Shown here piece by piece: positions 2,551 through 19,321 of a DNA stretch of 48,670 nt. Made by a program: the position numbers and the translations under genes. Source of the stretch: Alphaproteobacteria bacterium (GTDB lineage Bacteria; Pseudomonadota; Alphaproteobacteria; SMXQ01); contig JAOTVC010000004.1 of the NCBI GenBank assembly GCA_029863585.1, positions 1-48,670 of the forward strand, read 5' to 3'. Within the stretch, counting starts at the first letter, position 1, and each line of letters begins with the position of its first letter. The notes beneath the pieces were generated by a model that saw only the letters and a program-made list of their open reading frames with translations, was not told where the DNA came from and made no database searches.

Positions 2551-3728
2551 CGGCCCGCCCGTGCCGTCACCGCAGCTTGAGGGCTGGCCGATGCCGTGCC
2601 CAGATGGCGGATGCGGGGATAGACGTCGCGAGCGAACAGGGTGATGTTGCGCACGGTCTCCTCGTGATCCAGGAAACCCGCCTGCAGCATGCCGAGGAGA
2701 TGCCCCATGCCGCCCACCCGCTCGCAGAAGGTCTCGATCTGGCGGACCACCTGGTCGGGCGTTCCGGCCATGACCACGCCCTTTTCGATCAGGAAGTCCA
2801 TGCCCTCCTGGCGGATTGCCGCGGTGCGCCCGGCAAACTCGCCCTTCAGCGCCCGGACGTTGATGTCGACGGAAACATAGCCCGGCGGGTTGCGGAACTG
2901 GGGCGCGGTCTTGGACGCGAGGAACCAGCGCAGCGCCTCCGCCCGTTTCCGGGCTTCGGCTTCGCTCTCGCCGACGGCGATCAGGGGCATGAAGCCGAGC
3001 CGCGCGGTGCCGGCCTGCGGCCCATCGGGGCAGGCGTTGCGGTAACGGTCGAACAGCTTGCGCACCTGTTCATAGGGCTGCAGGAAGCTCGCGAAATTGA
3101 AGCCGCGCTTCGCCACCCGGTCGATATTGGGGCTGTCGGTGGAGCCCGTGGTCCAGATCGGCGGGTGGGGTCGCTGATAGGGGACCGGCCAGATATTGAC
3201 GCAGCGTTTGTGCCAGTGGGTGCTCTCGAAATTGAATGGGCCGTCCCTTGTGGTCCAGGCCTTGACCACCAGGTCGATGCCGTCCCACAGGCGCTCCATG
3301 GTATGGGTCGGGTTGGTGTTGGACCCGAACAGCTCGTAGGGTACGCCACGCACGAAACCGGCATCCAGCCTGCCGCGGGAGATGCAGTCCACCATCGCCA
3401 TTTCCTCGGCGATGCGTACCGGATCGGCCCGATTGGCGACCGGATTGCCGAGCACCAGGATGCGCCCCTTGGAGGTCTCGCGCGCCAAGATCGCCGCCGT
3501 CAGCGGCACGGCGGCGTCGAGGCAGGTGGGCGTCTGGTGATGCTCGTTCAGCATCAGGTTGAGGCCGAGCTCGTCGGCGATGACGTATTCGTCGAGGTAG
3601 CGGTTGTAAAGATCGGCGCCGATCCCGGAATCGAAATGGGCATTGGACAGGCTGACCCTGTCGGACGGGTAGCTGTCCTGCGGTGGCAGATGCGGATAGG
3701 GCATCTCCGTGAAATACCAAGCGTCCAT
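2547..3728 (-). CDS. LLM-class flavin-dependent monooxygenase, copy 1
   Basis: A 393-residue bacterial-luciferase-family TIM-barrel oxidoreductase. These enzymes use reduced FMN and oxygen. The N-terminus carries WYFTEMPYP, then LNEHHQ near residue 60, the RGRLDAGFVRG segment near residue 138, and PPIWTTGS in the middle, all typical of the fold. It is a clear paralogue of the next gene upstream (3768-4940): nearly every motif is shared and the lengths differ by three residues. The C-terminal tail is Ala/Ser-rich and not shared. It lies in the same operon as a flavin reductase, which would supply reduced flavin. Family assignment is firm. Whether the two copies act as a heterodimer, as luciferase alpha and beta do, or in sequence cannot be decided here. 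Confidence 0.94.
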   Translation of the reverse strand: MDAWYFTEMPYPHLPPQDSYPSDRVSLSNAHFDSGIGADLYNRYLDEYVIADELGLNLMLNEHHQTPTCLDAAVPLTAAILARETSKGRILVLGNPVANRADPVRIAEEMAMVDCISRGRLDAGFVRGVPYELFGSNTNPTHTMERLWDGIDLVVKAWTTRDGPFNFESTHWHKRCVNIWPVPYQRPHPPIWTTGSTDSPNIDRVAKRGFNFASFLQPYEQVRKLFDRYRNACPDGPQAGTARLGFMPLIAVGESEAEARKRAEALRWFLASKTAPQFRNPPGYVSVDINVRALKGEFAGRTAAIRQEGMDFLIEKGVVMAGTPDQVVRQIETFCERVGGMGHLLGMLQAGFLDHEETVRNITLFARDVYPRIRHLGTASASPQAAVTARAGR

Positions 3729-3767: not shown

Positions 3768-4940
3768 CTACTGGGCGGCGGCCCCTTTGTTGGCCGGTTT
3801 GAAGTCGAATTCCTCGCGGATGCGGGGATAGACCTCCTTGGCGAAGAGCGTCATGCTCTTGACCGTTTCCTCATGGGTCATATGGCCGGCCTGCTGCATC
3901 ATCAGGAGCTGGCCGAAGCCGCCGACATGGCCATAGAACGCCTCGACCTGTTCGAACACTTGGTCCGGCGTGCCGTACATCAGCACACCCTGCTCCTTGA
4001 GGTATTCGATGCCCTTTGTGCGCACCGCATCGGTCCGCCCGGAATAGGTCCCCTTCAGCGCGTTGACGTTGAACGACACCGGGACGTAGCCCGGCGGGTT
4101 GCGGAACTGCGGCGCCGTCTTGGCGCCCAGGTACCACGCGACCTTCTTGGCGAAGCCTTCGGCCTCTTCCTCGGTTTCCCCGGTCGCGACCAGGGGCATA
4201 TAGGCGATGTGGCGGCGCACGTCTTCCGGATCGTCGTAGATCGAGCATTCGCGGTAGGCGTCGAACATCTCCCGCACCTTCACGTGCGGCTGCAGGAACA
4301 TGGCGAAGGTAAAGCCGCGCCGGGCCACTTCGCGGATGTTCTCCTTGTCCGACGATCCGGTAATCCAGACCGGCGGATGGGGTTTCTGGTAGGGCGTCGG
4401 CCAGATGTTGACGCTGCGCTTGTGCCAGAACTTGCCCTCGAAATTGAAGCAGCCGTCGCGGTGGGTCCAGGCCTTGACGCAGAGGTCGATACCTTCCCAC
4501 AGGCGCTCCAGGGTCTGGGTCGGATTGGTATTGGCGGCGAACACCTCATAGGGGACGCCGCGCACGAAACCCGCGTCGAGGCGCCCCCGGGAAATGCAAT
4601 CGATCATCGCCATTTCCTCGGCGACGCGGATGGGATCCGCCCGGTTCGACATCGGGTTGCCGAGGATGCAGATGCGCGCCTTGGAGGTCTGGCGCGCCAG
4701 GATGGCGGCCGACAGGGGGGCGGCGACGTCGAGGCAAGTGGCCGTCTGATGATGTTCGTTGAGCATGATGTTGAGGCCGAGATCGTCGGCAATGAGATGC
4801 TCGTCGAGATACCGGTTGTAGAGGTCGGCGCCCAGTTTCGGATCGAAATGCTTGTTGGGCAGGCTGACCCGGACGGATGGAACCGTATCGGGATCGGGAT
4901 GATCCGGATAGGGCATTTCGGTGAAGTGCCAGCAATACAT
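3768..4940 (-). CDS. LLM-class flavin-dependent monooxygenase, copy 2
   Basis: A 390-residue paralogue of the downstream copy 1. Shared landmarks are WHFTEMPYP at the N-terminus, LNEHHQTATCLD near residue 60, SRGRLDAGFVRGVPYE near residue 137, FWHKRSVNIWPTPYQKPHPP near residue 170, and TAPQFRNPPGYVP near residue 270. Reduced flavin would come from the flavin reductase in the same operon. The gene starts 21 bases after the first hydrolase gene ends, and a 39-base spacer precedes copy 1. The duplication is tandem and both copies are full length with no frameshift. The divergence looks old enough for distinct roles. The substrate is not known; RutA-type amide-ring opening or Baeyer-Villiger-type chemistry are both possible. 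Confidence 0.94.
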   Translation of the reverse strand: MYCWHFTEMPYPDHPDPDTVPSVRVSLPNKHFDPKLGADLYNRYLDEHLIADDLGLNIMLNEHHQTATCLDVAAPLSAAILARQTSKARICILGNPMSNRADPIRVAEEMAMIDCISRGRLDAGFVRGVPYEVFAANTNPTQTLERLWEGIDLCVKAWTHRDGCFNFEGKFWHKRSVNIWPTPYQKPHPPVWITGSSDKENIREVARRGFTFAMFLQPHVKVREMFDAYRECSIYDDPEDVRRHIAYMPLVATGETEEEAEGFAKKVAWYLGAKTAPQFRNPPGYVPVSFNVNALKGTYSGRTDAVRTKGIEYLKEQGVLMYGTPDQVFEQVEAFYGHVGGFGQLLMMQQAGHMTHEETVKSMTLFAKEVYPRIREEFDFKPANKGAAAQ

Positions 4941-5887: not shown

Positions 5888-7024
5888 TCAGTCCGGGATG
5901 GGTTCCTGGCCGACCAGCTCCAGGCCGTAACCGTCGAGGCCGACGATGGTGCGCCGTGTATTGGTCAGCAGGATCATGTCGTGCACGCCAAGCTCGAGCA
6001 GAATCTGCGCACCGATGCCGTATTGCCGCAGTTCGGAGATGGGCTTCGACAGCGGCCGGCCTTCGCGTTCGGCGACGAAACGGGACAGCGCCGTCGGGCT
6101 GGTTTCGCGGATGATGACCACCACGCCGCGGCCTTTCTCGCCGATCATTTCCATCGCCGAATGCAGCTCCGTCGCCCGGTCGCGCTTTTCCCCCGCCGCG
6201 AACTGGCTTTCGGTCCGGTCGCCCAACACGTCGGCCAGGACGTTCAGCGCATGCATGCGCACCAGCACCGGCTCCTCCCCGCTGACATCCCCCTTGCTGA
6301 GGGCCACGTGCTCGCCGGGTTCCACCTTGTTGGAGAAGACGTGCAGCTTGAACTCTCCGCCGTAACGGCTGTTGATGGTGGTTTCGGCCACTTTCTCGAT
6401 GATCTTCTCGGTGCGCCGCCGATAGGCGATCAGATCGGAGATGGAGGCGACATTCAGCCCGTGCTTCTTGGCGAAGGTCAGCAGATCCGGCAGCCGCGCC
6501 ATGGTCCCGTCGTCGTTCATGACCTCGCAGATCACGCCCGACGGGTTGAGTTCGGCGAGCCTGGCGATATCGACCGCCGCTTCGGTATGCCCCGCCCGCA
6601 CCAGGACACCGCCGGGCTGGGCGATCAGCGGAAACACGTGACCCGGGCTGACGATGTCGGTCCGTCCGTGATTGGAATTAATGGCCACGGAAATGGTCTG
6701 GGCCCGGTCGGCGGCCGAAATTCCCGTGGTGACTCCTTCACGCGCTTCGATGGAGATGGTGAAGGCGGTCTGATGGCGCGTCTGGTTCTTGGCCGCCATC
6801 AGCTCGAGGCCGAGCTGATCGGCGCGTTCCGGCGTCACCGCCAGGCAGATCAGGCCGCGGCCGAACTTGGCCATAAAATTGATCGCATCCGCATCCGCCT
6901 TTTCCGCGGGCACGATGAGATCGCCCTCGTTCTCGCGGTCCTCATCATCGACCAGGATGAACATGCGGCCCTGGCGGGCGTCTTCGATGACATCCTCTAT
7001 GGACGCTAATGCGGTGTCGGACAC
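5888..7024 (-). CDS. ribB: 3,4-dihydroxy-2-butanone 4-phosphate synthase with degenerate GTP cyclohydrolase II domain (RibBX-like)
   Basis: The start chosen is GTG at 7024, which has AAGGGA six bases upstream; an in-frame extension to 7114 is unlikely to be coding. The product is 378 residues. The N-terminal ~200 residues form a complete RibB domain: DDEDRENEGDLI for Mg binding, RHQTAFT, GVTTGISAADRA, SPGHVFPL and EVMNDDGTMAR. It converts ribulose 5-phosphate to DHBP for riboflavin synthesis. The C-terminal half aligns with GTP cyclohydrolase II, but the three zinc Cys of the CxTGD...CDC motif are gone (the region reads MHALNVLADVLGD), and so is the RxxGRNIG catalytic segment. This decayed half is known as RibX. 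A working RibA must be encoded elsewhere. The gene is divergent from the dioxygenase gene at 7220. Confidence 0.93.
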   Translation of the reverse strand: MSDTALASIEDVIEDARQGRMFILVDDEDRENEGDLIVPAEKADADAINFMAKFGRGLICLAVTPERADQLGLELMAAKNQTRHQTAFTISIEAREGVTTGISAADRAQTISVAINSNHGRTDIVSPGHVFPLIAQPGGVLVRAGHTEAAVDIARLAELNPSGVICEVMNDDGTMARLPDLLTFAKKHGLNVASISDLIAYRRRTEKIIEKVAETTINSRYGGEFKLHVFSNKVEPGEHVALSKGDVSGEEPVLVRMHALNVLADVLGDRTESQFAAGEKRDRATELHSAMEMIGEKGRGVVVIIRETSPTALSRFVAEREGRPLSKPISELRQYGIGAQILLELGVHDMILLTNTRRTIVGLDGYGLELVGQEPIPD

Positions 7025-7219
7025 GGTCGATCCCTTGGTTTGCTTGTATTGCCGCCGGTTGGCGGATGCCCTGCTGCGGGATTGGAAAGTATCCCGCCAG
7101 ACCCGGGGGATCAAGAGCCGCCCAGCCGCTTGCGCAAGAGCGGCTTGGCAGCGTGGCGGCGTTCAATTACAATCATTCCAATTTCATTAGATTGCAAAGG
7201 AATTTCAAGGGGCTATGCC

Positions 7220-8062
7220 ATGACTGTCTCCGTCACCCCCCTTTCGGCCAGCTTAGGGGCCCGGATCGAAGGGCTAGACCTCCGGAGCCTGCCTCAGGGG
7301 GACGATCTCGCCCAGGTGCGGCGTGCCTTTCTCGATCATCAGGTGGTGGTGTTTCCGGGCCAGAAAATTTCGGCCGGCGATCAGATCGCCTTTTGCGAAT
7401 TGTTCGGCGCCGCCGATTCCGATTACAAGGCGCCGCCGCAGCGGGATGACGACTACCGCAAGGGCGTCATGCTGGTGTCCAACGTGCGCAAGAACGGCGT
7501 GCCCATCGGCAACCTGCCCGACGGCGACATGCAGTTCCATTCCGACGGGGCCCATCGGGCCAGCCCCTACCTTGCCACCACGCTCTACGCCATCCGGGTT
7601 CCGCTCCAGGGCGGCGATACCTTGTTCGCCAACCTTTACGCCGCCTATGAGGCTTTGGATGACCCCACCAAGGCGCGGATCGCGGACCTCCGGGTGCACA
7701 ACGCCTATATCCTTGATGCCACCAGCCGGGATGAGGAATCTCGGCCCGGCGGCATCCTGCGCGAGGCGGAGCATCCCCTGGTCCGCGTCCATCCGGAGAC
7801 CGGGCGCAAGGCGCTTTATGTCAACCGGTTGATGACCCGCTTCATCGTCGGCCAGGACGACGCCGAGGGGAGGGTGCTGCTCGACACCTTGCTCGACCAT
7901 GTGGAACGGCCGGAATTCATCTATGCCCATAAGTGGACGGCGGGGGATTTCGTGATGTGGGACAACCGCTGCGTCAATCACGCGCGCACCGATTTTTCCG
8001 CTGAAGAGGTGCGGCTGCTCCGGCGCTACACCATTTCGGAATCCGCACCGGCGCCGGCCTGA
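7220..8062 (+). CDS. TauD/TfdA family 2-oxoglutarate-dependent dioxygenase
   Basis: A 280-residue Fe(II)/2-oxoglutarate dioxygenase. The ATG at 7220 is preceded by AAGGGG; an open frame extending to 7040 lacks this support. The facial triad is visible as His107 and Asp109 (FHSD) with His254 in WDNRCVNHARTDF. The 2-oxoglutarate-binding Arg is in the LLRRYTI segment (Arg268 or Arg269). Family members hydroxylate taurine, chlorophenoxyacetates, alkylsulfates and similar acids. The gene stands alone on the plus strand and faces the transporter operon. It ends just before a shared hairpin at 8091-8116. The substrate is unknown. Confidence 0.93.
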   Translation: MTVSVTPLSASLGARIEGLDLRSLPQGDDLAQVRRAFLDHQVVVFPGQKISAGDQIAFCELFGAADSDYKAPPQRDDDYRKGVMLVSNVRKNGVPIGNLPDGDMQFHSDGAHRASPYLATTLYAIRVPLQGGDTLFANLYAAYEALDDPTKARIADLRVHNAYILDATSRDEESRPGGILREAEHPLVRVHPETGRKALYVNRLMTRFIVGQDDAEGRVLLDTLLDHVERPEFIYAHKWTAGDFVMWDNRCVNHARTDFSAEEVRLLRRYTISESAPAPA

Positions 8063-8137: not shown

Positions 8138-9088
8138 TTATTTCAGGACGTCTTTGTACTGGGTGAAGAACTTAGCAAGGTCCTCAAGCAGTTTGCCCGT
8201 CTCCGGCCCCTTGAGGGGGTCGATGGGCCGCTTGGTCTTCTTGTGCCAACCCTGGATCGCAGGATCGTTCAGCGCCGCGAACAGCGCGTCCGATAGCTTC
8301 TTCCGGACATCGGCCGGAACCCCCGGCGTGGTGCCGACGACGCGTTCGATGGTCAGCGCTTCCAAGGCCGGCTGGCCGAGTTCCCGCGCCGTGGGCACGC
8401 CCGGGAACGGGCTCTTAGGCTCGAACGACATCACCGCCCTGATATCGCCGTCCTTGCCCCACCTGGCGAAAGAGCGGGTGTTGAACAGCGACAGGTGGGT
8501 GTCGCCGCGCACCATGGACAGCGAGATCTTGGCCGAGCCCTTGTAGCCGGTCAGGAACTTGATATCCATGCCCATGGCCTTGGCCATGATCTTGCCGGCG
8601 ACATAGGAACCCGATGCCTTGCTGGTCACGGCGTATTTCAGGCCCTTGGCGCTCTGCAGGCTCTTGACGTCCTGATAGGGGCTCTTCTTGCCCACCGTCA
8701 GCACATACTTGGACTGGGCGATCCGCCCGAGCCAGGTGAACTTGTCGATATCGTAGCTCTGTTTCTTATCGAGGATCTTATCCAGCAGCATCCCCGGCAT
8801 ATTGAAGATGGCGATGTTGTAGCCGTCGGGCTTGGCCCGATAGAGCACATTGAGCGCCTTGCGGCCGCCCGCGCCCGCGACGTTCTTAGGCACGACGTTG
8901 ATCTTGCCGCCCAGGTGCTTGCCCATCACCGGCGCGATCTTGCGCACGTAGGTGTCGAACCCGCCGCCCGGGCCATAGGGGATGATGAAGGTGATGTTCT
9001 TTTCCGGAAATGCGGCGCCGGCCGAACCCGCCATCGCCAAGGCAGCGGCGCCAAAAGCGGCGGCGCCCATTCCAATGCGTTTGATCAT
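8138..9088 (-). CDS. Bug-family (TctC-like) periplasmic substrate-binding protein, copy 1
   Basis: A 316-residue protein with a Sec signal peptide (MIKRIGM, hydrophobic Ala-rich core, likely cut near AGA-A at residue ~25). The mature protein has the Bug signature: ITFIIPYGPGGGFD near residue 32, PKNVAGAGGRKALN near residue 67, FPGVPTARELG in the C-terminal lobe, and VPADVRKKLSDAL. Bug proteins bind small carboxylates and deliver them to TctA/TctB membrane proteins. A GGGAGAT ribosome binding site precedes the ATG. The gene is the last of a minus-strand run (tctA, tctB, cupin, this gene), with 124 bases before it and a good terminator after it. The ligand cannot be read from sequence. Confidence 0.93.
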   Translation of the reverse strand: MIKRIGMGAAAFGAAALAMAGSAGAAFPEKNITFIIPYGPGGGFDTYVRKIAPVMGKHLGGKINVVPKNVAGAGGRKALNVLYRAKPDGYNIAIFNMPGMLLDKILDKKQSYDIDKFTWLGRIAQSKYVLTVGKKSPYQDVKSLQSAKGLKYAVTSKASGSYVAGKIMAKAMGMDIKFLTGYKGSAKISLSMVRGDTHLSLFNTRSFARWGKDGDIRAVMSFEPKSPFPGVPTARELGQPALEALTIERVVGTTPGVPADVRKKLSDALFAALNDPAIQGWHKKTKRPIDPLKGPETGKLLEDLAKFFTQYKDVLK

Positions 9089-9212: not shown

Positions 9213-9782
9213 TCAGGCTAAGGGCCAAGGAATCTGAGACACGCCGGGGCTTTCCCAATAACGCCCGGTTTCCAGGTCGTAGCGGCCTTGGTTGAAGCCG
9301 CCCGGTTTGGCCGACCGCATGATTACCGCCACCGATCCAGCAATGCCCGCGACCTCGGCATGGATGGCGTAGGGCTCGACGATATCCATCGCCCCCGGCG
9401 CCACCGGATCGCGCGCGGTTTGCCGGATCTCCGCCCGGTCGGGGACCGAGCGGTCATCGGTCCGCTCATAACGGACGATCTCCTCCGATCTCGTAAGCAC
9501 GCCGTAGAGCACCCAGATATGGGCGTGGTCGTGGATCCGGGTCTTCTGGCCGGCATCCTTGATCAGGCCGTTGACGACGAAGCCGTAATCGGGGTCTTCG
9601 TAAAACAGCAGGTTCTCGTGGTTGGAGACCGGCCAGTCCTTGGAGCTCGCCGCCAATTCCGGATCGGCGAGCAGCCGTGCCATGGGCCCCTTGGCCTTGG
9701 GCCAGACCTCGACCGGATCGGCATCCGCTGCATAGAGCGCGCGGATTTCGTTCACGAATTGCTGAACCGATGCCATCGCCAT
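9213..9782 (-). CDS. Cysteine-dioxygenase-type cupin protein
   Basis: A 189-residue single-domain cupin. The motif TRIHDHAHIWVLYGVL places His84, His86 and His88 in the first cupin box. His141 (PYAIHAEV) sits in the second box. The spacing matches the three-His iron site of cysteine/thiol dioxygenases. The Cys of the mammalian Cys-Tyr cofactor is not evident, which is usual in bacterial thiol dioxygenases. The gene lies inside the transporter operon, between tctB and the binding protein, where no TTT component is expected. It may oxidise the imported compound or a thiol made from it. A general metal-dependent cupin of unknown substrate is the safe call. Confidence 0.8.
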   Translation of the reverse strand: MAMASVQQFVNEIRALYAADADPVEVWPKAKGPMARLLADPELAASSKDWPVSNHENLLFYEDPDYGFVVNGLIKDAGQKTRIHDHAHIWVLYGVLTRSEEIVRYERTDDRSVPDRAEIRQTARDPVAPGAMDIVEPYAIHAEVAGIAGSVAVIMRSAKPGGFNQGRYDLETGRYWESPGVSQIPWPLA

Positions 9783-9819: not shown

Positions 9820-10479
9820 CTATTCCCAGATCATATCCATGATCCAGGTGGTCACCTCGCCGCGGTAAAGCTCATAGCTCAGGATCTGTTCGAACAGAAG
9901 ATAGACGAACACGAAGGTCCCAAGTCCGACATAGAGCGAGAGCTTCACCGACTTGCCGCCGCCCAATAGCATCCAGAGGAACACGAAGATCGGCGACGCG
10001 ATGAGGAATCCGAACAGCCAGATTCCGATCACGCCCAGTACCATGACGCCAAAGACCAGCAATTCCCGCCGGACCTCGCGCGGCTTGATCTCGGACGGAT
10101 CCAGCGTCGCGCCGAAGAAGCGGGTCACGAACCGGCCCGCTACCGTTTCCGTGACCGACGCGATATCCAGCAGCGAAAGCACGATTCCCGCGTAGCCGAT
10201 GATCAGCGGGAAGTTGCGCTCCTTGCCCTTGAACTCGTAAGTCTCGTGCAGGAAGAAGATCATGAACGCCAGGATGCCGATCGCGAAGTAGAGCGCGCTT
10301 TGCTTTTCCACTTCCACCATCGGCTTGAGCGCACACACCAAAGCCGCCAGGCCAAGGGCGAGCGGCGCCAGCAGTATGGTCCGATGCAGACCCATCCCCA
10401 ACATCACCAAGTAGGCGGCGAGGAAGACGACGACCCCAATGCCGCCGGCGAGGGACCGGGTGGAGGATCCGCCGCTCAT
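9820..10479 (-). CDS. Tripartite tricarboxylate transporter, TctB-family small membrane subunit
   Basis: A 219-residue membrane protein. Hydrophobic segments lie at about residues 12-30, 35-50, 62-77, 92-106, 142-172 (probably two) and 178-200. This is close to the family pattern, with an extra soluble loop around residues 110-138. TctB forms the small subunit of the secondary transporter with TctA. The ATG overlaps the TGA of tctA by four bases (ATGA), a strong sign of coupled translation. Sequence conservation in this family is low, so the call rests mainly on topology and on the neighbouring tctA and Bug genes. Confidence 0.88.
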   Translation of the reverse strand: MSGGSSTRSLAGGIGVVVFLAAYLVMLGMGLHRTILLAPLALGLAALVCALKPMVEVEKQSALYFAIGILAFMIFFLHETYEFKGKERNFPLIIGYAGIVLSLLDIASVTETVAGRFVTRFFGATLDPSEIKPREVRRELLVFGVMVLGVIGIWLFGFLIASPIFVFLWMLLGGGKSVKLSLYVGLGTFVFVYLLFEQILSYELYRGEVTTWIMDMIWE

Positions 10480-12005
10480 GACGCACCTCTCTTGGATGCC
10501 GAGCGCTTGCGCAGCCAGACCCGGAAGGAGGGGATGAGCAGGCTGATAACGATCAGGGAGATCAGGATCAGCGACACGTCCCGGGTCACGAAAATCGCCC
10601 AGCTGTCATCCGATATTCCCATCGCCTGGAAGAAGCTGCGTTCGGTGATATCGGCCAGCACCAGGGCGATGGTGAAGGTGATGCGCGGATATTGATAGCG
10701 GATCATCAGGTAGCCGATCACCGCGAAGGCCATCGCCACCACCACGTCGCCGAATTCGCCCTGCAAGGCGTAGGCGCCGACCAGGGCGACCACGGTGACC
10801 GTCGGTGCCAGGATATGGGCATCGACATAGGTGAGGTAGGCCATGGGTTTGGCCAGGGCGAGGACGATCAGGGTGGCGACCACGCAGGCGATGGTCAGCG
10901 ACAGCACCAGGGTGAACACCACGTCCTCATGATCGAACAAGAGGCGCGGCCCGGGTTCCAGGCCGTGCAGCACCATAGCGCCTAGGAACACCGCAGTTTC
11001 GGCGCTGCCGGGGATGCCGAAGGCCAGGGTCGGGATCAGGGAGCCGCCGTCCTTGGCGTTGTTCGCCGATTCCGGGGCGATCACGCCCTTGATGTTGCCC
11101 CGGCCATAGGGCACGTCGGGGTTGCCATCCCGCTGCACTTGGGTCGAGTAACTGAGAAACGCAGCGACCGTCCCGCCGACCCCGGGCACCGCACCGATGA
11201 AGGTGCCGATGCCCGAGCCCACCAGCATGGTCGACCAATTGGCGAACACTGCCCGAATGCCGGCCGAGATTCGCTGAATCTTGAATTCCGCGGCGTGGCT
11301 GGCGATCGTGCCGCCCTGCACCGCGAGGTCGATCATCTGGGAAATGGCGAACAGGCCGATCAGGGCGGGGACCAGCTTGATCCCGTCCCATAGCGCTTCC
11401 ACGCCGTAGCTGTAGCGCACCACGCCGGAGACCAAGTCGAAGCCGACGAACCCGCAGATGAACCCGAAGATCGCCGCGATCAGGGCTTGCAGCAGCCGCG
11501 TGCCGGTGGACACCGCGATGGCGCAGAGGCCGAACAGGGCCAGCAGGAAGAATTCCGGCGGCGAGAACAGCAGCACGATTTCCTTGGCGATGGGAATAAC
11601 CAGGATCAGCGTGAACACGCCGATCAGTCCGCCCAAGGCCGACGCGGTGGCGCCGGCACCGATGGCTTCCCCCGCACGTCCCTGCTGGGCCAGGGGAAAC
11701 CCATCGAAGGTGGTGGCCGCGTTGGGGGCGATCCCTGGGGTATTGAGCAGGATCGCGGAGACCGATCCGCCGGTCGAGGTCGCCGCCATGGACCCGCCCA
11801 TCAGCATGATGGCGTCGGACTTGTCCATGCCGAAAGTCAGCGGGATCAGGAGCGCCAGCGCCGTCGTGCCGCCCAGCCCCGGTATGGCGCCGAACAACAG
11901 CCCGCAGCAGGTGCCTGCCACCAGCCAGCTAAGCGATCCAAAATTCAGAAAATGCAGAGAAGCAGTACCCAGTGCGTTGAGCAGCCCCCCCATAACCTCG
12001 ATCAT
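10476..12005 (-). CDS. Tripartite tricarboxylate transporter, TctA-family large membrane subunit
   Basis: A 509-residue polytopic membrane protein, about the usual TctA length. The chosen ATG at 12005 begins MIEVMGGLL; a longer open frame to 12128 has no hydrophobic or conserved character and is probably leader. Recognised landmarks are GAIPGLGGTTALALLIPLT near residue 40, GSVSAILLNTPGIAPNAAT near residue 80, and IGTFIGAVPGVGGTVAAFLSY in the middle, the two inverted-repeat GxxPGxGG motifs of the family. It is the transporter's permease, working with TctB and a Bug protein. It is divergent from the first HDO-like gene, with 237 bases between them. Confidence 0.95.
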   Translation of the reverse strand: MIEVMGGLLNALGTASLHFLNFGSLSWLVAGTCCGLLFGAIPGLGGTTALALLIPLTFGMDKSDAIMLMGGSMAATSTGGSVSAILLNTPGIAPNAATTFDGFPLAQQGRAGEAIGAGATASALGGLIGVFTLILVIPIAKEIVLLFSPPEFFLLALFGLCAIAVSTGTRLLQALIAAIFGFICGFVGFDLVSGVVRYSYGVEALWDGIKLVPALIGLFAISQMIDLAVQGGTIASHAAEFKIQRISAGIRAVFANWSTMLVGSGIGTFIGAVPGVGGTVAAFLSYSTQVQRDGNPDVPYGRGNIKGVIAPESANNAKDGGSLIPTLAFGIPGSAETAVFLGAMVLHGLEPGPRLLFDHEDVVFTLVLSLTIACVVATLIVLALAKPMAYLTYVDAHILAPTVTVVALVGAYALQGEFGDVVVAMAFAVIGYLMIRYQYPRITFTIALVLADITERSFFQAMGISDDSWAIFVTRDVSLILISLIVISLLIPSFRVWLRKRSASKRGAS

Positions 12006-12073
12006 GGGCCCTCTGTCCTGTCCACTGGGCGTGCCCCCCGACCCCATTATTCTTGCGCTTTTCCGCGCTTGCG

Positions 12074-12089
12074 GGGTCCCTGGGGACCC
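12074..12089. repeat. Inverted repeat in the tctA / HDO1 divergent region
   Basis: GGGTCCC-TG-GGGACCC, a perfect 7-base inverted repeat with a 2-base centre, lying in the 237-base gap between tctA and the divergent oxygenase-like gene. It could be an operator or an RNA hairpin in the tctA leader. The flanking 11-mer CCAGGGACCCC (minus strand) recurs at 32482-32492 beside another inverted repeat. No clear -35/-10 pair was found in the gap. Confidence 0.4.
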
Positions 12090-12242
12090 TCTTCGGCGCC
12101 ACTCTATCCAAATTGGCCGAGGGCTCAAGAGGATTCCTCGGCGCGTCGCCGGGTATCTCGGCGCCGTCGGGATTTGCCGCGGTTGTCCGGCCTGGCCTAG
12201 ACTTCCCCCCTGACACCGCGCCGGCGGCGCAGGGAGGGATCG

Positions 12243-12992
12243 ATGCTATCGCCAGAACAATTCGAAGCACACATGGCCCAGGTCATCTGGGACAACCGCT
12301 GGAAGGCCCATAGCGCCTTCGACGAATGGCTGGAGAACCACATGTCGGCCGAAGGGGCCGCCGTGTTCGCCCGCGAGCACTGCGTCTTCGCCGACCATTT
12401 CCCCCGCTGGTTCGGCAACATGGTGGCCAACTGCCCACACCTCAAGGTCCGCCGCTACCTGATCGACAACATGTATGTCGAGGAGGTGAAGGACCCTTCC
12501 ATCGCCAACGGGCATTATGAAAGCATGGTGGATTTCGCGGTGGCGCTCGGCCTCGATCGCGACTTCATCCACACCTATAAGGGGACGCTCTATACCCGCC
12601 TGGCGCTCGCCTATTGGGACCGCGCGTCCCGCGCCTGGCCCTGGCTGGAATCCTTCGCCGCCGTCGCCGGGCTGGAAGCGGCGCGCGGGCCGACCGTGGC
12701 GAAGCTCGGCCATATCGCCAAGCTGGGGCGCGATGCCTGGGCGCCGCTCAACCTGCCGGAAGGGGCGATGGCCCATTGGACGGCGGGCGAGGAAGCGGAC
12801 ATGCCCGAAGGCGGCCATGGCGACATGACACTCAAGATCCTCGCCCAGTACGCCGACACCGAGTTTCTGCAGGACCGGGTGATCGAAGTGCTGGAAGAAT
12901 CCATGCAGGTGCGCTGGTACCACTTCGATTGCATCGGCCGTGACGCCCTCGCCGCAACCGGGGTCAGCGTCGAAGGCCCCAAGGTCGCCTGA
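12243..12992 (+). CDS. TenA/PqqC/UndA-like putative non-heme iron oxygenase (heme-oxygenase fold), paralogue 1
   Basis: A 249-residue protein with AGGGAGGG just before the ATG. It is all-helical in character and resembles the TenA/PqqC and HDO (heme-oxygenase-like diiron oxidase) superfamily. Candidate ligands fit the HDO pattern Glu-x6-His at Glu45/His52 (REHCVFADHFPRWF), with further conserved acids and His in VEEV...GHYE (residues 80-93), HWTAGEEAD...GGHGDM, and WYHFDCIGRD near the C-terminus. HDO relatives include UndA, CADD, BesC and SznF, which cleave or oxidise amino or fatty acids with oxygen. Two close paralogues lie at 14374 and 15166. Fold family is likely; metal content and reaction are inferred. 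Confidence 0.8.
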   Translation: MLSPEQFEAHMAQVIWDNRWKAHSAFDEWLENHMSAEGAAVFAREHCVFADHFPRWFGNMVANCPHLKVRRYLIDNMYVEEVKDPSIANGHYESMVDFAVALGLDRDFIHTYKGTLYTRLALAYWDRASRAWPWLESFAAVAGLEAARGPTVAKLGHIAKLGRDAWAPLNLPEGAMAHWTAGEEADMPEGGHGDMTLKILAQYADTEFLQDRVIEVLEESMQVRWYHFDCIGRDALAATGVSVEGPKVA

Positions 12993-13023
12993 ACCGGGCA
13001 GAGGCGTCCGCGGGAGGGCGGAT

Positions 13024-13046
13024 GGGGGAGGGCGGAGTCCTCCCCC
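13024..13046. terminator. Hairpin between convergent genes
   Basis: GGGGGAGG and CCTCCCCC pair around a 7-base loop, between the HDO-like gene ending at 12992 and the Bug gene ending at 13065. There is no T-run on either side, so it is at best a weak or Rho-assisted terminator. Confidence 0.35.
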
Positions 13047-13064
13047 GCAATGCCGCGGCTTGGA

Positions 13065-14174
13065 TCAGTTCTTTTTCTCTTTCTTGGACTTCTTGATGCT
13101 GCGGTACTTGATGGCGACGACCTTCTGCATCCTCGCGACCAGGTTCGGCGCAAGATCCGGCGTGTTTAGGAAGAACGCCTGGAGGTCGGCGCCCGACATC
13201 GGCTTCACCTTGAGGCGAAGTTTTTTCGCCTCGGCTTGATAGGCCTTGGACGCCATCACCAGATCGAATGCGGTGCGATGCTGCGCCACGCGCTCGATCG
13301 ACAGGGACGGCGGCGCCATGATCGCCCGTCCCACGGTATTGGGAGCGACGATGGCCTCCATCATCGCTTTCTCCTCCTTGGATTTGACCAAGGTCATGAT
13401 GCCGGGAACCTGGGGAAACTGCGGCGAGGGCTTCATCGTCACCTGAACCAGAAGGTTCACCTTCCCTTCCTGGACCCAGGTCGGCTGACGCGCATACAGG
13501 CTGGTGATGGAGACGCTCGAGGTGCCGTCCATCTCTCCCCGCTCCATGGCGAGGAAGCCGCCGGCGGAGCTGTAGCCCTTGACCGGGCGGAACTTGGTGC
13601 CGACCAGCTCGTTGAGGAAGGAGATGTAGAGGGTGGAGCCCGACAGGGTGCCGCCGACCGCGATGGGCGCCGAGACCTTCTTGGCATCGGCGATGGTCTT
13701 GACCTTGGATGTGTTCCAGGTGATGACCAGGGTGATGGCGTCGGCGAAGCGGCCGACCCAGGTGAACTTCTTGGCGTCGAAATTGATCTTGGGCCGCTTC
13801 AGCTGCTGCATCAGATAGACGCTCTGGCCGATCACGCCAAGGACGGTGCCGTCACGCGGCGCGACGGTGTAAAGGTAGTTGGCGGCCACCAGGCTGCCGG
13901 CGCCGGGCATGTTCTTGGGCACGATTGCGGGGTTTCCGGGAAGCACCTTGCCGAGATGGCGGGCGTAGAGCCTGGCATAGAAGCCATAACTACCGCCCGG
14001 CCGGTAGCCGATGACGATCTCGACCTTGTTGCCCTTGAGGGCGGGGCCCTTGACCTGGGCTTGTGCCTGGGCGGGGACGGTATGGCCCGCGGCGACGCCG
14101 AGGCCCAGCAGTGCCGCCACGAGGAAGGGGCCCTTCCGGCCCCTCGGCGGGGAACAGTCGTAACGCAAAGCCAT
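13065..14174 (-). CDS. Bug-family (TctC-like) periplasmic substrate-binding protein, copy 2
   Basis: A 369-residue protein. The ATG at 14174 has a strong GGGAGGAAG site; the open frame continues upstream to 14426 without support. An exported N-terminus is visible (basic stretch, hydrophobic LVAALLGLGVAA, then AQAQAQ as probable cleavage area). The mature part has Bug landmarks: VEIVIGYRPGGSYG, PKNMPGAGSLVAANYLY, and a central FTWVGR shared in position with copy 1. It is longer than usual and ends in a Lys-rich tail (KKSKKEKKN). It reads against the flanking oxygenase-like genes and splits paralogue 1 from paralogues 2 and 3. It has no TctA/B of its own nearby, so it may share the transporter at 9820-12005. 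Confidence 0.9.
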   Translation of the reverse strand: MALRYDCSPPRGRKGPFLVAALLGLGVAAGHTVPAQAQAQVKGPALKGNKVEIVIGYRPGGSYGFYARLYARHLGKVLPGNPAIVPKNMPGAGSLVAANYLYTVAPRDGTVLGVIGQSVYLMQQLKRPKINFDAKKFTWVGRFADAITLVITWNTSKVKTIADAKKVSAPIAVGGTLSGSTLYISFLNELVGTKFRPVKGYSSAGGFLAMERGEMDGTSSVSITSLYARQPTWVQEGKVNLLVQVTMKPSPQFPQVPGIMTLVKSKEEKAMMEAIVAPNTVGRAIMAPPSLSIERVAQHRTAFDLVMASKAYQAEAKKLRLKVKPMSGADLQAFFLNTPDLAPNLVARMQKVVAIKYRSIKKSKKEKKN

Positions 14175-14373
14175 GGTCTTCCTCCCGTGGTGTAATGTTT
14201 GTCTTCTTTTGCCTGGGGGTCGCGGACGCGAGGATCGCTGGAACATGCGATCGCGGCGCACTCGGGCGGACGCGTTCGAACCGGGCGGAAAATTATCGTT
14301 CAGTATGTTAGTCTGAGCCAACAAAATCGTGCGGCGCGGGGCCGCCGCCATAATCGCCATAGGGGAGGCAGCG

Positions 14374-15123
14374 ATGGAATCACCGGACGACTTCGAACGC
14401 CACATGGCCCAGATCATCTGGGACAACCGGTGGAAGAACCCGCATGCGCTGCAGGTCTGGGTGGAGAACTACCTCGACCGCCCCGGCGCCGCGGTCTTCG
14501 CCCTGGAGCATTGCGTCTTCGCCGATCATTTCCCCCGCTGGTTCGGGTCCATCGTCGCGAACTGCCCGCACCTCAAGGCCCGCCAATACATGATCGACAA
14601 CATGTATGTGGAGGAGGTCGAGGATCCGACCATCACCATCGGGCATTATGAAAGCCTGGTCGATTTTGCGGTCGCCTTGGGCCATGACCGGGAGACGGTC
14701 TACAGGCACAAGGGCGCCATCTACACCCGCATGGCGATGGCCTATTGGGAACGGGCGTCCCGTGCCTGGCCCTGGCTGGAGGCGTTCGCCGCGGTCTGCG
14801 GCCTGGAAGCGGCGCGCGGGCCGGCGGTGGGCAAGATCGGCCGGGTCAACAAGCTCAGGCGCGCGACCTGGGTGCCGCTCGGACTGCCGGACGAGTCCCT
14901 GCTCCACTGGTCGGCCGGCGAGGAGGCCGATTTCCACGAAGGCGGGCACGGCGACATGACGCTCAAGATCCTCGCCCAATACGCCGACACCGAAGAGACG
15001 CAGGCCCGGGTGCTCGAGGTCATCGAGGAAACCACCCAGGTCCGCTGGTATCATTTCGATTGCATCGGCCGCGATGCGCTGAAGGCTTCGGGGATATCGC
15101 TGGAAGCGGCGGGGGCGGCCTGA
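14374..15123 (+). CDS. TenA/PqqC/UndA-like putative non-heme iron oxygenase, paralogue 2
   Basis: A 249-residue close relative of paralogue 1, in register over the whole length. The ATG at 14374 follows GGGGAGGC; a longer open frame from 14329 is less likely. Shared elements are HMAQIIWDNRWK near residue 10, the Glu45-x6-His52 segment EHCVFADHFPRWF, DNMYVEEVEDP, GHYESLVDF, HWSAGEEAD, GGHGDMTLKILAQYADTE and WYHFDCIGRDAL. It begins a plus-strand run with paralogue 3 (42 bases later) and the TPP enzyme. A 199-base divergent gap separates it from the Bug gene. An enzymatic oxygenase role is inferred from the fold family and conserved acid/His pattern. Confidence 0.8.
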   Translation: MESPDDFERHMAQIIWDNRWKNPHALQVWVENYLDRPGAAVFALEHCVFADHFPRWFGSIVANCPHLKARQYMIDNMYVEEVEDPTITIGHYESLVDFAVALGHDRETVYRHKGAIYTRMAMAYWERASRAWPWLEAFAAVCGLEAARGPAVGKIGRVNKLRRATWVPLGLPDESLLHWSAGEEADFHEGGHGDMTLKILAQYADTEETQARVLEVIEETTQVRWYHFDCIGRDALKASGISLEAAGAA

Positions 15124-15165
15124 ACCGTCGGCCTGGGCGGGCAAGACAAGCAAGGGAGAACAATG

Positions 15166-15909
15166 ATGTATTCACGTGACGAGTTCGAAGACCGCATGGC
15201 CGAAGCCATCTGGGAAAACCGGTGGAAGAGCCATACCTCCTACGAGACCTTCATCAAGAACCACATGTGCATCGAGGGTGCCAAGGTCTACGCCATGGAG
15301 CATGCCGTGTTCGCCAACCATTTCCCGCGCTGGTTCGGTTCCCTGGTGGCCAATTGCCCGCACCTCAAGGCGCGGCAGTACATGATCGAAAACATGTATG
15401 TCGAAGAGGTCACCGATCCGGAGGTCGAGAACGGCCATTACGAGAGCCTGGTGGATTTCGGTGTCGCCCTCGGCCTCGATCGCGACGAAATCTATAACTA
15501 CAAGGGCCGGATCTATACCCGCCTGTGCCTGGCCTATTGGGACCGCGCCACCCGCGCCTGGTCCTGGACCGAGGGATTTGCCGCCGTGGCCGGGCTGGAG
15601 GCGGCACGCAGTCCCGGCGTGCTCAAGCGCGGCAATTGCGTGCCCAACAACCGCTCGGTGTTCCGGCCCCTCGGCCTGCCGGAAGAGGCGCTGGCGCACT
15701 GGTCGGCGGCGGAGCAGGCGGATTATTCCGCGGGCGGGCACGGCGACATGACGCTCAAGGTGCTGTCCGAATTTTGCACGACCCAGGCGGAACAGGAGCG
15801 CATCCTTGAGGTCCTGGCCGAGACCATGCAGGTGCGGTCGTACCATTTCGACTGTATCGGGCGCGATTCGCTGAAGGCCGCGGGCGCGCCGCTCGACGCC
15901 GTCGCCTAG
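15166..15909 (+). CDS. TenA/PqqC/UndA-like putative non-heme iron oxygenase, paralogue 3
   Basis: About 247 residues. Two adjacent ATG codons (15163 and 15166) follow AAGGGAGAACA; the choice hardly matters. It keeps the family blocks: WENRWKSHTSYE, EHAVFANHFPRWFGS (the Glu-x6-His pair), ENMYVEEVTDP, GHYESLVDFGVALG, HWSAAEQAD, GGHGDMTLK and SYHFDCIGRDSL. It is more divergent than the other two: the usual Asp before the second His is Asn, and the GEEAD block is AEQAD. This fits subunit or substrate specialisation. The TPP-enzyme gene follows after 175 bases. Confidence 0.8.
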   Translation: MYSRDEFEDRMAEAIWENRWKSHTSYETFIKNHMCIEGAKVYAMEHAVFANHFPRWFGSLVANCPHLKARQYMIENMYVEEVTDPEVENGHYESLVDFGVALGLDRDEIYNYKGRIYTRLCLAYWDRATRAWSWTEGFAAVAGLEAARSPGVLKRGNCVPNNRSVFRPLGLPEEALAHWSAAEQADYSAGGHGDMTLKVLSEFCTTQAEQERILEVLAETMQVRSYHFDCIGRDSLKAAGAPLDAVA

Positions 15910-16084
15910 CCGGCCGCGGTTCAAGGGGCGCTGGACGCCGTCGGTGGCGGCGGGCGGCGCACTCCGTCCCGAAGCGCAGGTCCACCGGCCGGGCGCGGCG
16001 CAAGGGGCCGCCCTGGTCGCGGCTCCCAATCGAAGGCCATGACAGGGGACCCGGCAAGGGGTTCAACACAGGAGGAGGAAAGGC

Positions 16085-17908
16085 ATGAGAAAACCCGCAC
16101 GCAAGGCCGCGACACCCAAGGAGGCCGTGGTCGATAAGCCGGTCCGCCTGCGCAAACGCAACCGGCCCGAATATGCCTCCGACGCGATGGCGGACACCCT
16201 CCAGGGCTTGGGATTCCGGTACGCCTTCCTCAATCCGGGGGCGAGCTACCGGGGGCTGCACGATTCGATCGTGAACTACCTCGGCAACCGCGATCCGCAG
16301 ATGGTCTTGTGCAATCACGAGGACGTTTGCGTCCACGCCGCCCAGGGCTATGCCAAGGCCAGCGGCGAACCGGCGCTTGCCATCCTCCATGACCTGGTCG
16401 GGCTGATGCACGGCACCATGGGGGTGTTTAACGCCTATTGCGACCGCCAGCCGGTGGTCGTGCTGGGCGGCTCCGGTCCCCAGGACCCCGAGAAGCGCCG
16501 CAGCATCGACTATCTCCATTCGGCCAATACCCAGGGCGAGCTGGTGCGCCCCTTCGTCAAGTGGGACGACGAGGCAGTGACGCCCGAGGCGGTCTGCGAA
16601 TCCATCGCCCGGGGGCACAAGATCGCCAATACCGGGCCGAAGGGTCCGGTCTATATCTCCATCGACGCCGGCGTTCAGGAAACCAAGCTATCGGGACCGA
16701 TCGAGATTCCCGACGCTTCCCTTGCCTGCAACCAGGCGCCGCCGCCGCCCGCCGCCAACCCGGCCGCCGTCGAACAGGCCGCGGCGATGCTGGTCCGCGC
16801 CCGCAATCCGGTGATTTCCGGCCAGCGCATCATGCACCGGCGCGAGGCGGCGGAACCGCTCAAGCGCCTGGTGGAGCTGACCGGGGCGGCCTATGTGGAG
16901 GACAGCAACGGCAACTGCCTGGCGAGTAACCATCCCCAGAACCTCTCCGGAATCCGCGGGGTCCTGGGCAAGGCGGACGTGCTGCTGGCCGTGGATTCGC
17001 CCGATGTCACGGCCCTGGTCAGCGGTTATTCGGCGCGGATGCGCGGCCATTTGGGCGGCACCGGCTCCGGCACCAAGATCATCGACTTGTCGCAGAACGA
17101 ATACGTGACCCGGTCGTGGTCCCGGGTGACCGGCAAGGTGGCGCCGACGACCTTGCAACTCCTGGCCGATCCGGTGGTCGGCATGGAGCAGCTGATCGAT
17201 GCGGTCCGCTCAGGTCTGCGCCGCAACAGCCGCGCCCGCGCCGCGGCCCAGGCCCGGCGCAAGCGCCACGCCAGCGCCCACGATGCATTCATGAAGAAGC
17301 AGCAGGCCACCTTGAAGGCGCGCTGGGACGAGGTGCCGATCTCGCCGCACCGCTTCGCCCATGAGGTCTTCCAGGCGGTACGGCGCAAACCGTGGCTGCT
17401 GACCAACCGGGGACACCGGGCATGGCCCGTGGGCATCTGGCAGTTCCAGGGCTGTGGCGATTACCTCGGCCATTCCGGCGGCGGCGGCGTGGGCTATGGG
17501 CCCGGCGCCATGGTGGGCGCCGCGCTGGCCGCCCGCGACCAGGGCCGCTTCCCTGTTGGAATCATGGGCGACGGCGACTTCCAGATGAGCTCGGGTGCCC
17601 TGTGGACGGCGGTTCACATGAAGATCCCGCTGCTCTGCATCATCAACAACAACACCTCCTGGTTCAACGACGAGCAGCATCAGGTGGAGGTCGCCAAGAT
17701 GCGCAAGCGCCCGGTGGAGAACGCCTGGATCGGCACGACCACCCGGGTGCCCGATTGCGATCTTGCCACCGTGGCCGAGGGCTGGGGGGCGTGGAGCGAA
17801 GGCCCCATCACTGACGGCGACCAGCTGGCCGCGGCCCTGAAGCGCGCGGTCAAGGAGGTCGAGGGCGGCGCCGTCGCCGTGCTGGACGTGCGCAACGCCT
17901 ACGGCTGA
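16085..17908 (+). CDS. Thiamine-diphosphate-dependent decarboxylase/synthase family enzyme
   Basis: A 607-residue, full-length three-domain TPP enzyme of the acetolactate synthase / benzoylformate decarboxylase superfamily. The ATG follows GGAGGAGGAAA. The catalytic Glu is Glu79 (CNHEDVCVHAAQGYA). The central domain spans about residues 220-375. The cofactor motif begins GDGDFQMSSGALW (Gly495-Asp-Gly) and ends with Asn521-523 (CIINNN). A basic extension (residues 1-28) and a basic linker (378-395) are unusual. The family decarboxylates 2-oxoacids or joins them. It is downstream of two oxygenase-like genes on the same strand, so it may process their 2-oxoacid product or supply their substrate. 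The substrate cannot be read from the sequence. Confidence 0.9.
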   Translation: MRKPARKAATPKEAVVDKPVRLRKRNRPEYASDAMADTLQGLGFRYAFLNPGASYRGLHDSIVNYLGNRDPQMVLCNHEDVCVHAAQGYAKASGEPALAILHDLVGLMHGTMGVFNAYCDRQPVVVLGGSGPQDPEKRRSIDYLHSANTQGELVRPFVKWDDEAVTPEAVCESIARGHKIANTGPKGPVYISIDAGVQETKLSGPIEIPDASLACNQAPPPPAANPAAVEQAAAMLVRARNPVISGQRIMHRREAAEPLKRLVELTGAAYVEDSNGNCLASNHPQNLSGIRGVLGKADVLLAVDSPDVTALVSGYSARMRGHLGGTGSGTKIIDLSQNEYVTRSWSRVTGKVAPTTLQLLADPVVGMEQLIDAVRSGLRRNSRARAAAQARRKRHASAHDAFMKKQQATLKARWDEVPISPHRFAHEVFQAVRRKPWLLTNRGHRAWPVGIWQFQGCGDYLGHSGGGGVGYGPGAMVGAALAARDQGRFPVGIMGDGDFQMSSGALWTAVHMKIPLLCIINNNTSWFNDEQHQVEVAKMRKRPVENAWIGTTTRVPDCDLATVAEGWGAWSEGPITDGDQLAAALKRAVKEVEGGAVAVLDVRNAYG

Positions 17909-17935: not shown

Positions 17936-19036
17936 TCAGGCCGCGGTCCGGATGCTGGGAGGAGGTTCGGAAATTTTAGGCAGGGTGACGGTCACCACCG
18001 TCCCCTGCCCGAGTTCGCTCTCGACCGTGATCGATCCGCCATGGGCGTCGATCAGCCGCTTGCAGATGGACATCCCCAGACCGTAGCCCCGTTCAACCTC
18101 GGAGGTGAGCGGATCGCCGCAGACATAGGGATCGAAGATATTATCCAGGATGCTTTGCGGGATCCCACTGCCGCAATCCGAGACCACCAGCCGGGCACCG
18201 CCGTCCGCCATGCGGTCGATGGCGACGGTGATGGGGGCATCGCGCGGCGTGTGCTTGGCCGCGTTGGTGACCAGATTGAGGGTCACCTGTTCGATGGCGC
18301 GGCGGTCCAGGACGAAGACGGTATCGTCGGCGCCCATCTCGACGGTGATGCCGTCGCCGCGGCGCAGGCCCATGCCCTCGACCTTTTCGATGCATTCCTG
18401 GACGAGGGTGCTGAGGTCGACTTGTTCAAGGCGCAGATCGAGCTGCCCTTGTTCGATCCGCGAAAGATCCAGCAGGTCGGAGATCAGATCGTGCAGCATG
18501 CGGCCCGAGGAATGGATGTTGGCGGCGTAGTCCCGCATCCGGTCCGGTTTGTCGGCGATCGGCCCCATCTGCATGAACTCCGAATAGCCCAGGATGGCGT
18601 TGAGCGGAGTGCGGAGCTCGTGACTCATGGATGCGAGAAAGGCGGTCTTCTGTGCGCTCTGGACCTCGGCCTCGGCCTTGGCGGCTTGCAGCATGGCATC
18701 AAGGATCTCCAGCCGCCGGCTGGTGATCGCCAGCCCGGTGACGATGAACGCCATGCCGGCGGGGTAGATGTACCAGCCGTAATGCATATGGATCGGGCTG
18801 AGCCGCGCCTCCGCCGCCGCCACGCCGATCGAGCTGGCCAGCACGGTGATGGCGACCAGGCTGTAGAGGTGCAGCACGGCCACGATCCAGAAGCCGCCGA
18901 CGATCAACGCCACGCCGCGCTGGGCGCCGGCGCGCGAGAGCAGCGGCCAGCGGAGCACTGCAAGATAGGTGGTGCTGCCGGCCGCAAGGACCATGCAAAC
19001 GTTCACCACCAGCATGGTGGACCAGACAGGGGCCAT
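17936..19036 (-). CDS. Membrane sensor histidine kinase (orphan)
   Basis: 366 residues from the ATG at 19036; a GTG at 19102 would add 22 residues without changing the first membrane segment. Three to four hydrophobic segments occupy residues 8-105. A short coiled linker leads to the HisKA dimerisation helix, with His139 in MSHELRTPLNAILGYSEF. The ATPase domain has LNLVTNAAKH (N box), SDCGSGIP (G1), the GYGLGMSICKRL (G2) segment and a GQGTVVTVTLP end. No response regulator is adjacent. No periplasmic sensor domain is present, so it probably senses through the membrane segments. It converges on the TPP-enzyme gene, 27 bases away. Confidence 0.93.
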   Translation of the reverse strand: MAPVWSTMLVVNVCMVLAAGSTTYLAVLRWPLLSRAGAQRGVALIVGGFWIVAVLHLYSLVAITVLASSIGVAAAEARLSPIHMHYGWYIYPAGMAFIVTGLAITSRRLEILDAMLQAAKAEAEVQSAQKTAFLASMSHELRTPLNAILGYSEFMQMGPIADKPDRMRDYAANIHSSGRMLHDLISDLLDLSRIEQGQLDLRLEQVDLSTLVQECIEKVEGMGLRRGDGITVEMGADDTVFVLDRRAIEQVTLNLVTNAAKHTPRDAPITVAIDRMADGGARLVVSDCGSGIPQSILDNIFDPYVCGDPLTSEVERGYGLGMSICKRLIDAHGGSITVESELGQGTVVTVTLPKISEPPPSIRTAA

Positions 19037-19321
19037 GCCGTTTCCCAATCCATAATCCTTGTTTGCCCGCGTCCGCGGAAGAGCAGCAAACCCCGCCCCC
19101 ACGATGCCGCTTTCGGTTGATTGACCTCAACTTCGTGTGGCGCAATAGGTAGCGCTTACAGGATAAAAGAACGCTTAACAGGGTCCCGACGGCGTCCGAC
19201 AAAAGCATCGAATGCACGAGGATTTCCGCGGGTTTCACGCCGGCTGCCTGGCCCCTGCAATTTGGCCTATACTGATAAGAAGAAACAGCCCTCCCTACCC
19301 CCTGGAAGCGGGAAAAGCGAC

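Follow-up and report, generated by a model that had tools for sequence, protein, structure and literature searches.

A heme-oxygenase-like subfamily with an altered predicted metal site in a catabolic-looking gene island of an uncultured alphaproteobacterium

Three paralogous genes on contig JAOTVC010000004.1 of an Alphaproteobacteria bacterium (GenBank assembly GCA_029863585.1), termed here HDO1, HDO2 and HDO3, encode proteins of a small subfamily, as yet uncharacterised, among the heme-oxygenase-like metal oxidases and oxygenases (heme-oxygenase-like diiron oxidases, HDOs). The window analysed is positions 1 to 48,670 of that contig, 48,670 nucleotides in all; comparison genomes, loci and contigs are cited by our own G, L and C numbers. 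Tentatively, and with confidence a little short of even, we read the subfamily as O2-activating metalloenzymes with a rearranged metal site, a short-chain dehydrogenase/reductase (SDR) as partner and a catabolic role, placed in this organism within an older gene island.

Three paralogues and their predicted metal site

HDO1 (12243–12992, 249 aa), HDO2 (14374–15123, 249 aa, in a frame open from 14329) and HDO3 (15163–15909, 248 aa, about 40 bp after HDO2) all lie on the forward strand, and HDO2 and HDO3 align with HDO1 at 69% and 62% identity across almost their full length. These open reading frames and identities confirm an earlier sequence-only reading of the region, which had described three full-length, in-register paralogues, and the blocks it listed (GHYE, HW(S/T)A..AD, GGHGDM and YHFDCIGRD) are found in all three alike. 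The ratio of nonsynonymous to synonymous substitution rates (dN/dS) against sister genomes, 0.06–0.18, indicates purifying selection, and the same genome holds two more members of the subfamily on contigs C12 and C111 at 46–49% identity.

The proposed fold and superfamily were borne out by several lines of evidence. HDO1, HDO2 and HDO3 match PF14518 with E values of 1.8e-11, 1.8e-10 and 3.5e-12, their scores of 44.6, 41.4 and 46.9 bits passing the gathering cut-off of 28.9. An AlphaFold model of HDO1, built from 28 relatives (predicted local distance difference test 91.4, predicted template modelling (TM) score 0.88), retrieved CADD, PqqC, SSO2700, BesC and UndA in Foldseek, and query-normalised TM scores of 0.65–0.76 to CADD, SSO2700, BesC and UndA place it in the seven-helix heme-oxygenase-like fold. 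The 28-member profile likewise matches SSO2700 (4lqx, 1.3e-18), NePabS (9pj4, 5.5e-17) and CADD (3.1e-16). The three proteins fall well below the NCBIfam cut-offs for the characterised families, scoring 36.1, 34.0 and 41.0 bits against 200 for TIGR04305 (CADD/p-aminobenzoate (pABA) synthase), and 24.1 (HDO1) and 20.7 bits (HDO2) against 240 for TIGR02111 (PqqC), to which HDO3 has no match. Proteins with PF14518 are plentiful in the order-level set G000–G010, where 10 of 11 genomes carry them, with up to eight matches per genome at E 1e-8.

Where the subfamily departs from its relatives is the predicted metal site. In a profile alignment to CADD, whose residues E81, H88, E142, H174, D178 and H181 we take to be its metal ligands, E81/E82 fall opposite E80/E81 of the subfamily (numbered as in HDO1), H88 opposite H91 and E142 opposite E145; on helix α3, H174 falls opposite a Gly or Ala at position 182, D178 opposite D186, and H181 opposite H192 after an insertion of three residues. 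Across the 28 alignment rows (27 subfamily sequences and the outgroup L054), E80, E81, H91, D186 and H192 are invariant and E145 is kept in 27, so that the Glu and His ligands of α1 and the Glu of α2 are all represented. Position 182 is Ala or Gly in every one of the 27 subfamily rows and His in the outgroup only. By contrast, the motif H-x3-[D/E]-x2-H is present in all 26 PF14518 proteins compared that do not belong to the subfamily, namely L054 and 25 proteins of the same order. The models agree with this difference, since α3 of HDO1 ends at residue 186 and resumes at 192, being broken at 187–191, whereas in a PF14518 protein from outside the subfamily, encoded in the same genome and modelled as a control, a single helix (183–206) runs through H188, D192 and H195. 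HDOs share the ligand order E-H-E-H-(D/E)-H over α1, α2 and α3 (PMC11363339); the subfamily instead reads E-H-E-(G/A)-D-H, its α3 ligands do not sit on one unbroken helix as in dimetal HDOs, and the FlcD motif E-H-X-H-V-R is likewise not found. H178, present in 27/27 subfamily sequences, is the counterpart in the alignment of CADD Y170, a residue some 4 Å away from the metal site (PMC11965152), and could for that reason be a ligand. The likely metal site thus comprises E80 and H91 on α1, E145 on α2, and H178, D186 and H192 on the interrupted α3, the spacing of the α3 ligands likely being H-x7-D-x5-H rather than H-x3-D-x2-H. We infer a set of six ligands, three His and three carboxylates, in a new geometry beside a Gly/Ala-lined space at residue 182.

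This site is not the one put forward from sequence alone, where a Glu-x6-His pair and the ligand pattern of UndA, CADD, BesC and SznF had been invoked. The pair E45-x6-H52 does exist in all three paralogues; as a metal pair it fails, the aligned pair being E80-x10-H91. Residue 52 is His in 12, Asn in 9, Glu in 3 and Gln in 2 of the 28 rows, and since just 12 of 28 relatives have the His, it is not a family ligand. The structural comparison, made with the HDO1 model, upheld the HDO fold, but the profile alignment did not uphold E45/H52, and α3 departs from the UndA/CADD/BesC/SznF pattern in its Ala or Gly at 182, three-residue insertion and, in the HDO1 model, helix break. Nor do two substitutions once taken as specialisation of HDO3 retain that meaning: the Asn that replaces Asp at residue 51 has no ligand next to it, and AEQAD for GEEAD, although it adjoins the true site, reflects the Gly/Ala alternation at 182 that is the rule of the subfamily.

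Two other accounts of the site have to be weighed. The proteins may be mononuclear-iron dioxygenases of the FlcD kind, with one Fe held by a subset of the residues (e.g., E80, H91 and one α3 His) and no diiron cluster. FlcD is an HDO with an altered α3 that works on one Fe (PMC11363339), its E181-x9-H191 spacing recurs as E81-x9-H91, and the subfamily has no equivalent of FlcD H274, an α3 His ligand of that Fe, so that a canonical dimetal site is not intact. However, in FlcD the first α3 His is retained and the last two ligands are gone, while the subfamily shows the reverse, and the invariance of D186 and H192 argues that a second metal site is kept; we hold this account to be unlikely. It is still less probable that the pocket is metal-free, as in PqqC-like or TenA-like proteins, and supports a cofactorless oxidation or a non-redox reaction. 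PqqC is among the best structural matches, the canonical α3 metal motif is broken, and a PqqC Tyr (Y175 as read from the HMMER alignment) stands opposite H178, but the positions aligned with HDO ligands (E80, H91, E145, D186 and H192) are kept in 27–28 of 28 rows, and in the profile alignment PqqC shares neither H91 nor H192. The interrupted six-residue site remains the preferred reading.

Dehydrogenase partner and the link to the TPP gene

A scan of GTDB species genomes recovered the subfamily at 19 loci, all from metagenome-assembled genomes of Alphaproteobacteria/Proteobacteria and Chloroflexota. Among 385 genomes of the class, five gave matches at 1e-20, that of G076 solely through the canonical outgroup L054, and a plasmid search with HDO1 gave no match. 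In the tree, clade A (HDO1–3, the homologs from SAR202 Chloroflexota and some single copies) is split from clade B; the forks joining HDO1–3 are open, and the order among them, hence duplication within the genus, is not resolved. One SAR202 match (L125, genome G394) was reported with one in-frame TAG.

The conserved partner of the subfamily across two phyla is an SDR dehydrogenase rather than the thiamine pyrophosphate (TPP) enzyme gene that neighbours HDO1–3. The SDR is present in exactly the seven of 11 family genomes that have the HDO subfamily, and in six of those it follows the clade B HDO by about 65–180 bp; in the genome of the window, the contig with the HDO runs out at that place, as does the match to the SDR. 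Clade B loci L022–L026 show this order. In SAR202, the SDR begins about 10 bp after the HDO at L014 and L016 and adjoins it at L012, and these SDRs share 53–56% identity with those of the Alphaproteobacteria. Other genes at the SAR202 loci encode Rieske oxygenases, UbiD decarboxylases, an isochorismatase-family hydrolase and hydantoinase A/B, and a CMD-like gene occurs at L013 and L024; together, the SAR202 and clade B settings suggest catabolism. The operon of clade B has a third gene, encoding 392–395 aa (L022, 9914–11089; L024, 4748–5932; L025, 3273–4457), without a match in Pfam, NCBIfam or the PDB.

Several points weigh against reading HDO1–3 as SDR-partnered enzymes with a relocated ligand. 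No SDR adjoins HDO1–3 themselves, and where this genome family has HDO–SDR pairs, their HDO belongs to the other clade. The co-occurrence in seven of 11 genomes lies within one family and is not phylogenetically independent. Moreover, the characterised HDOs cited here all retain the first α3 His, so that H178 as its substitute is unproven.

The gene order around the TPP enzyme was compared using codon-scored gene calls, the loci being GC-rich. In L011, from the same genus, the run reads TauD, Bug, cupin, TctB, TctA, HDO1, HDO2, HDO3 and TPP, and L019, a short contig, holds HDO2-HDO3-TPP. The order TauD, Bug, TctB, TctA and TPP recurs in G003, G009 and G010, from two other genera of the family, where only a few hundred bases separate TctA from TPP and the locus lacks HDO genes; the island of G010 has the cupin as well. 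Because these genomes hold the island without any HDO, the island has a wider distribution than the triplet, and the simpler reading would be that this genus recruited the HDO genes into an older island. The link between HDO and TPP genes is genus-level: the triplet was not found with TPP beyond the genus, and TPP relatives occur in 11/11 family genomes against 7/11 for the HDO subfamily, which, with the HDO-less islands, rules out a universal pair. A TPP enzyme near the HDO in L013/L017, 24% identical, was not accepted as orthologous linkage.

The neighborhood survey thus went against the earlier idea that the two travel as one unit. That the triplet belongs with the TPP enzyme to a single co-evolved pathway, or is a hetero-oligomeric oxygenase cleaving an imported acid oxidatively ahead of 2-oxoacid processing, is quite improbable: the contiguity in L011 and L019 and a spacing in the window that permits a single HDO2-HDO3-TPP transcript favour it, but TPP stands with TctABC and TauD without HDO in G003, G009 and G010, HDO2-HDO3 of G008 adjoin a DoxX-like gene and lack a neighbouring TPP, and the single-copy HDOs of SAR202 and of other Alphaproteobacteria have no TPP gene next to them.

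The surrounding island and proposed function

The TPP-dependent enzyme (16085–17908, forward strand, 607 aa) is complete, as had been claimed, its three TPP domains carrying intact NHE (from residue 77), GDG (495) and INNN (520) motifs, and its dN/dS of 0.09–0.19 against sister genomes indicates purifying selection. It is likely a 2-oxoacid decarboxylase/carboligase. On a plasmid of Salipiger abyssi, a homolog of 48% identity has genes for TctABC, two aldehyde dehydrogenases and an alpha-hydroxy acid oxidase on its flanks, a neighborhood that would fit a 2-oxoacid decarboxylase step. After the TPP gene comes a histidine kinase gene (17936–19102), which L011, L075, L076 and L077 do not show at this position.

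On the other side of HDO1, across an intergenic region (12008–12242), lies the divergent gene for TctA (10476–12005, reverse strand), the membrane subunit of a tripartite tricarboxylate transporter (TTT), so that the HDO genes sit between TctA and TPP. Next on the reverse strand are TctB (9820–10479), a thiol-dioxygenase-like cupin (9213–9782) with His 84, 86, 88 and 141, also present in L011 and L075, whose nearest solved structure is mercaptosuccinate dioxygenase (8vni, E 4.6e-7), and the TctC/Bug binding protein of the conserved island (8138–9088). A TauD/TfdA-family 2-oxoglutarate dioxygenase (7220–8062) is on the forward strand. The upstream part of the island, on the reverse strand, includes a RibBA-like riboflavin enzyme (5888–7114), two luciferase-like (LLM) oxidoreductases (3768–4940 and 2547–3728), found at the same place in L075–L077, an alpha/beta hydrolase (1717–2550), which is not the only one in this part, a flavin reductase (1201–1707) and an Fe-type alcohol dehydrogenase.

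A second Bug/TctC-type solute-binding protein (13065 to about 14174, reverse strand), with an approximate start at a signal-peptide-like Met, is encoded between HDO1 and HDO2, and its gene is missing from that place in L011, the closest syntenic genome. Its C-terminus is lysine-rich, and such tails (5–10 Lys in the last 16 residues) occur on many Bug/TctC proteins of these genomes, at L009 (3597–4763, 7351–8586, 9827–11014, 10971–12044 and 14873–16003) and L018 (4724–5839 and 6426–7484), and are absent from the island's own Bug protein. At L009, on contig C12, the HDO paralogue lies amid five Bug binding proteins and ornithine-cyclodeaminase-like, MmgE/PrpD and glyoxalase-like genes.

These gene families and the Salipiger abyssi neighborhood support the earlier view of a setting for organic-acid uptake with a plausible 2-oxoacid decarboxylase. 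Literature searches directed at HDOs in catabolism, or at a cluster combining TTT, LLM, TPP and TauD genes, returned nothing relevant, in line with the statement that no characterised cluster has this composition. As the gene families suggest, the TTT importer would take up an organic acid, which flavin monooxygenases, the TauD dioxygenase, hydrolases and the TPP 2-oxoacid decarboxylase may then break down. HDO1–3, which in this genus would be three copies within an older catabolic island, probably rely on Fe (or Mn/Fe) and O2 for the oxidation of a small carboxylic acid or of a product of its degradation. The linkage across two phyla suggests that the SDR oxidises the alcohol formed by the HDO. 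A bolder version is doubtful: that a ligand moved by one helical turn (H178 for the lost His 182) and a GG hinge create a new O2-activating site, with which, together with the SDR, uncultured Alphaproteobacteria and SAR202 Chloroflexota catabolise recalcitrant organic acids, the triplet performing successive oxidations in one pathway. A conserved subfamily with such a departure from the ligand pattern, in catabolic-looking loci, would extend the HDO fold in its metal chemistry as well as in its biological role. The HDO and SDR offer a concrete enzyme pair for testing.

Comparison with known systems

The TPP enzyme shares three TPP domains and the catalytic motifs with PRK08327, benzaldehyde lyase and benzoylformate decarboxylase, but scores below every NCBIfam cut-off shown, the best being PRK08327 at 236 of 456 bits. 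Of the characterised HDOs, CADD/pABA synthase (1rcw, 8va9; NePabS, 9pj4) resembles HDO1–3 in fold and in the aligned E, H, E, D and H positions (Foldseek E about 1e-6), from which the subfamily differs by Gly/Ala for H174, His for Y170 and three residues inserted before the last His. The nearest solved sequence is SSO2700 (4lqx), a Sulfolobus TENA/THI-4 domain protein, which likewise has Gly at the first α3 His and keeps the D and H, but has neither the GG insertion nor H178 and is longer (322 aa, with an N-terminal extension). The dimetal HDOs UndA, BesC and SznF share the Glu...His on α1 and the Glu on α2, UndA and BesC being Foldseek matches as well, and differ in carrying the canonical E-H-X-H-(D/E)-H motif (PMC11363339). 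FlcD, the stated exception to the shared ligand pattern (PMC11363339), is like the subfamily in its deviant α3 set and in the E-x9-H spacing, but keeps the first α3 His and has the last two ligands replaced by V and R. Finally, characterised HDOs are known mainly from natural-product biosynthesis (PMC13108848), in contrast to the present subfamily, which departs from the common ligand pattern otherwise than FlcD does and sits in catabolic-looking loci of uncultured lineages.

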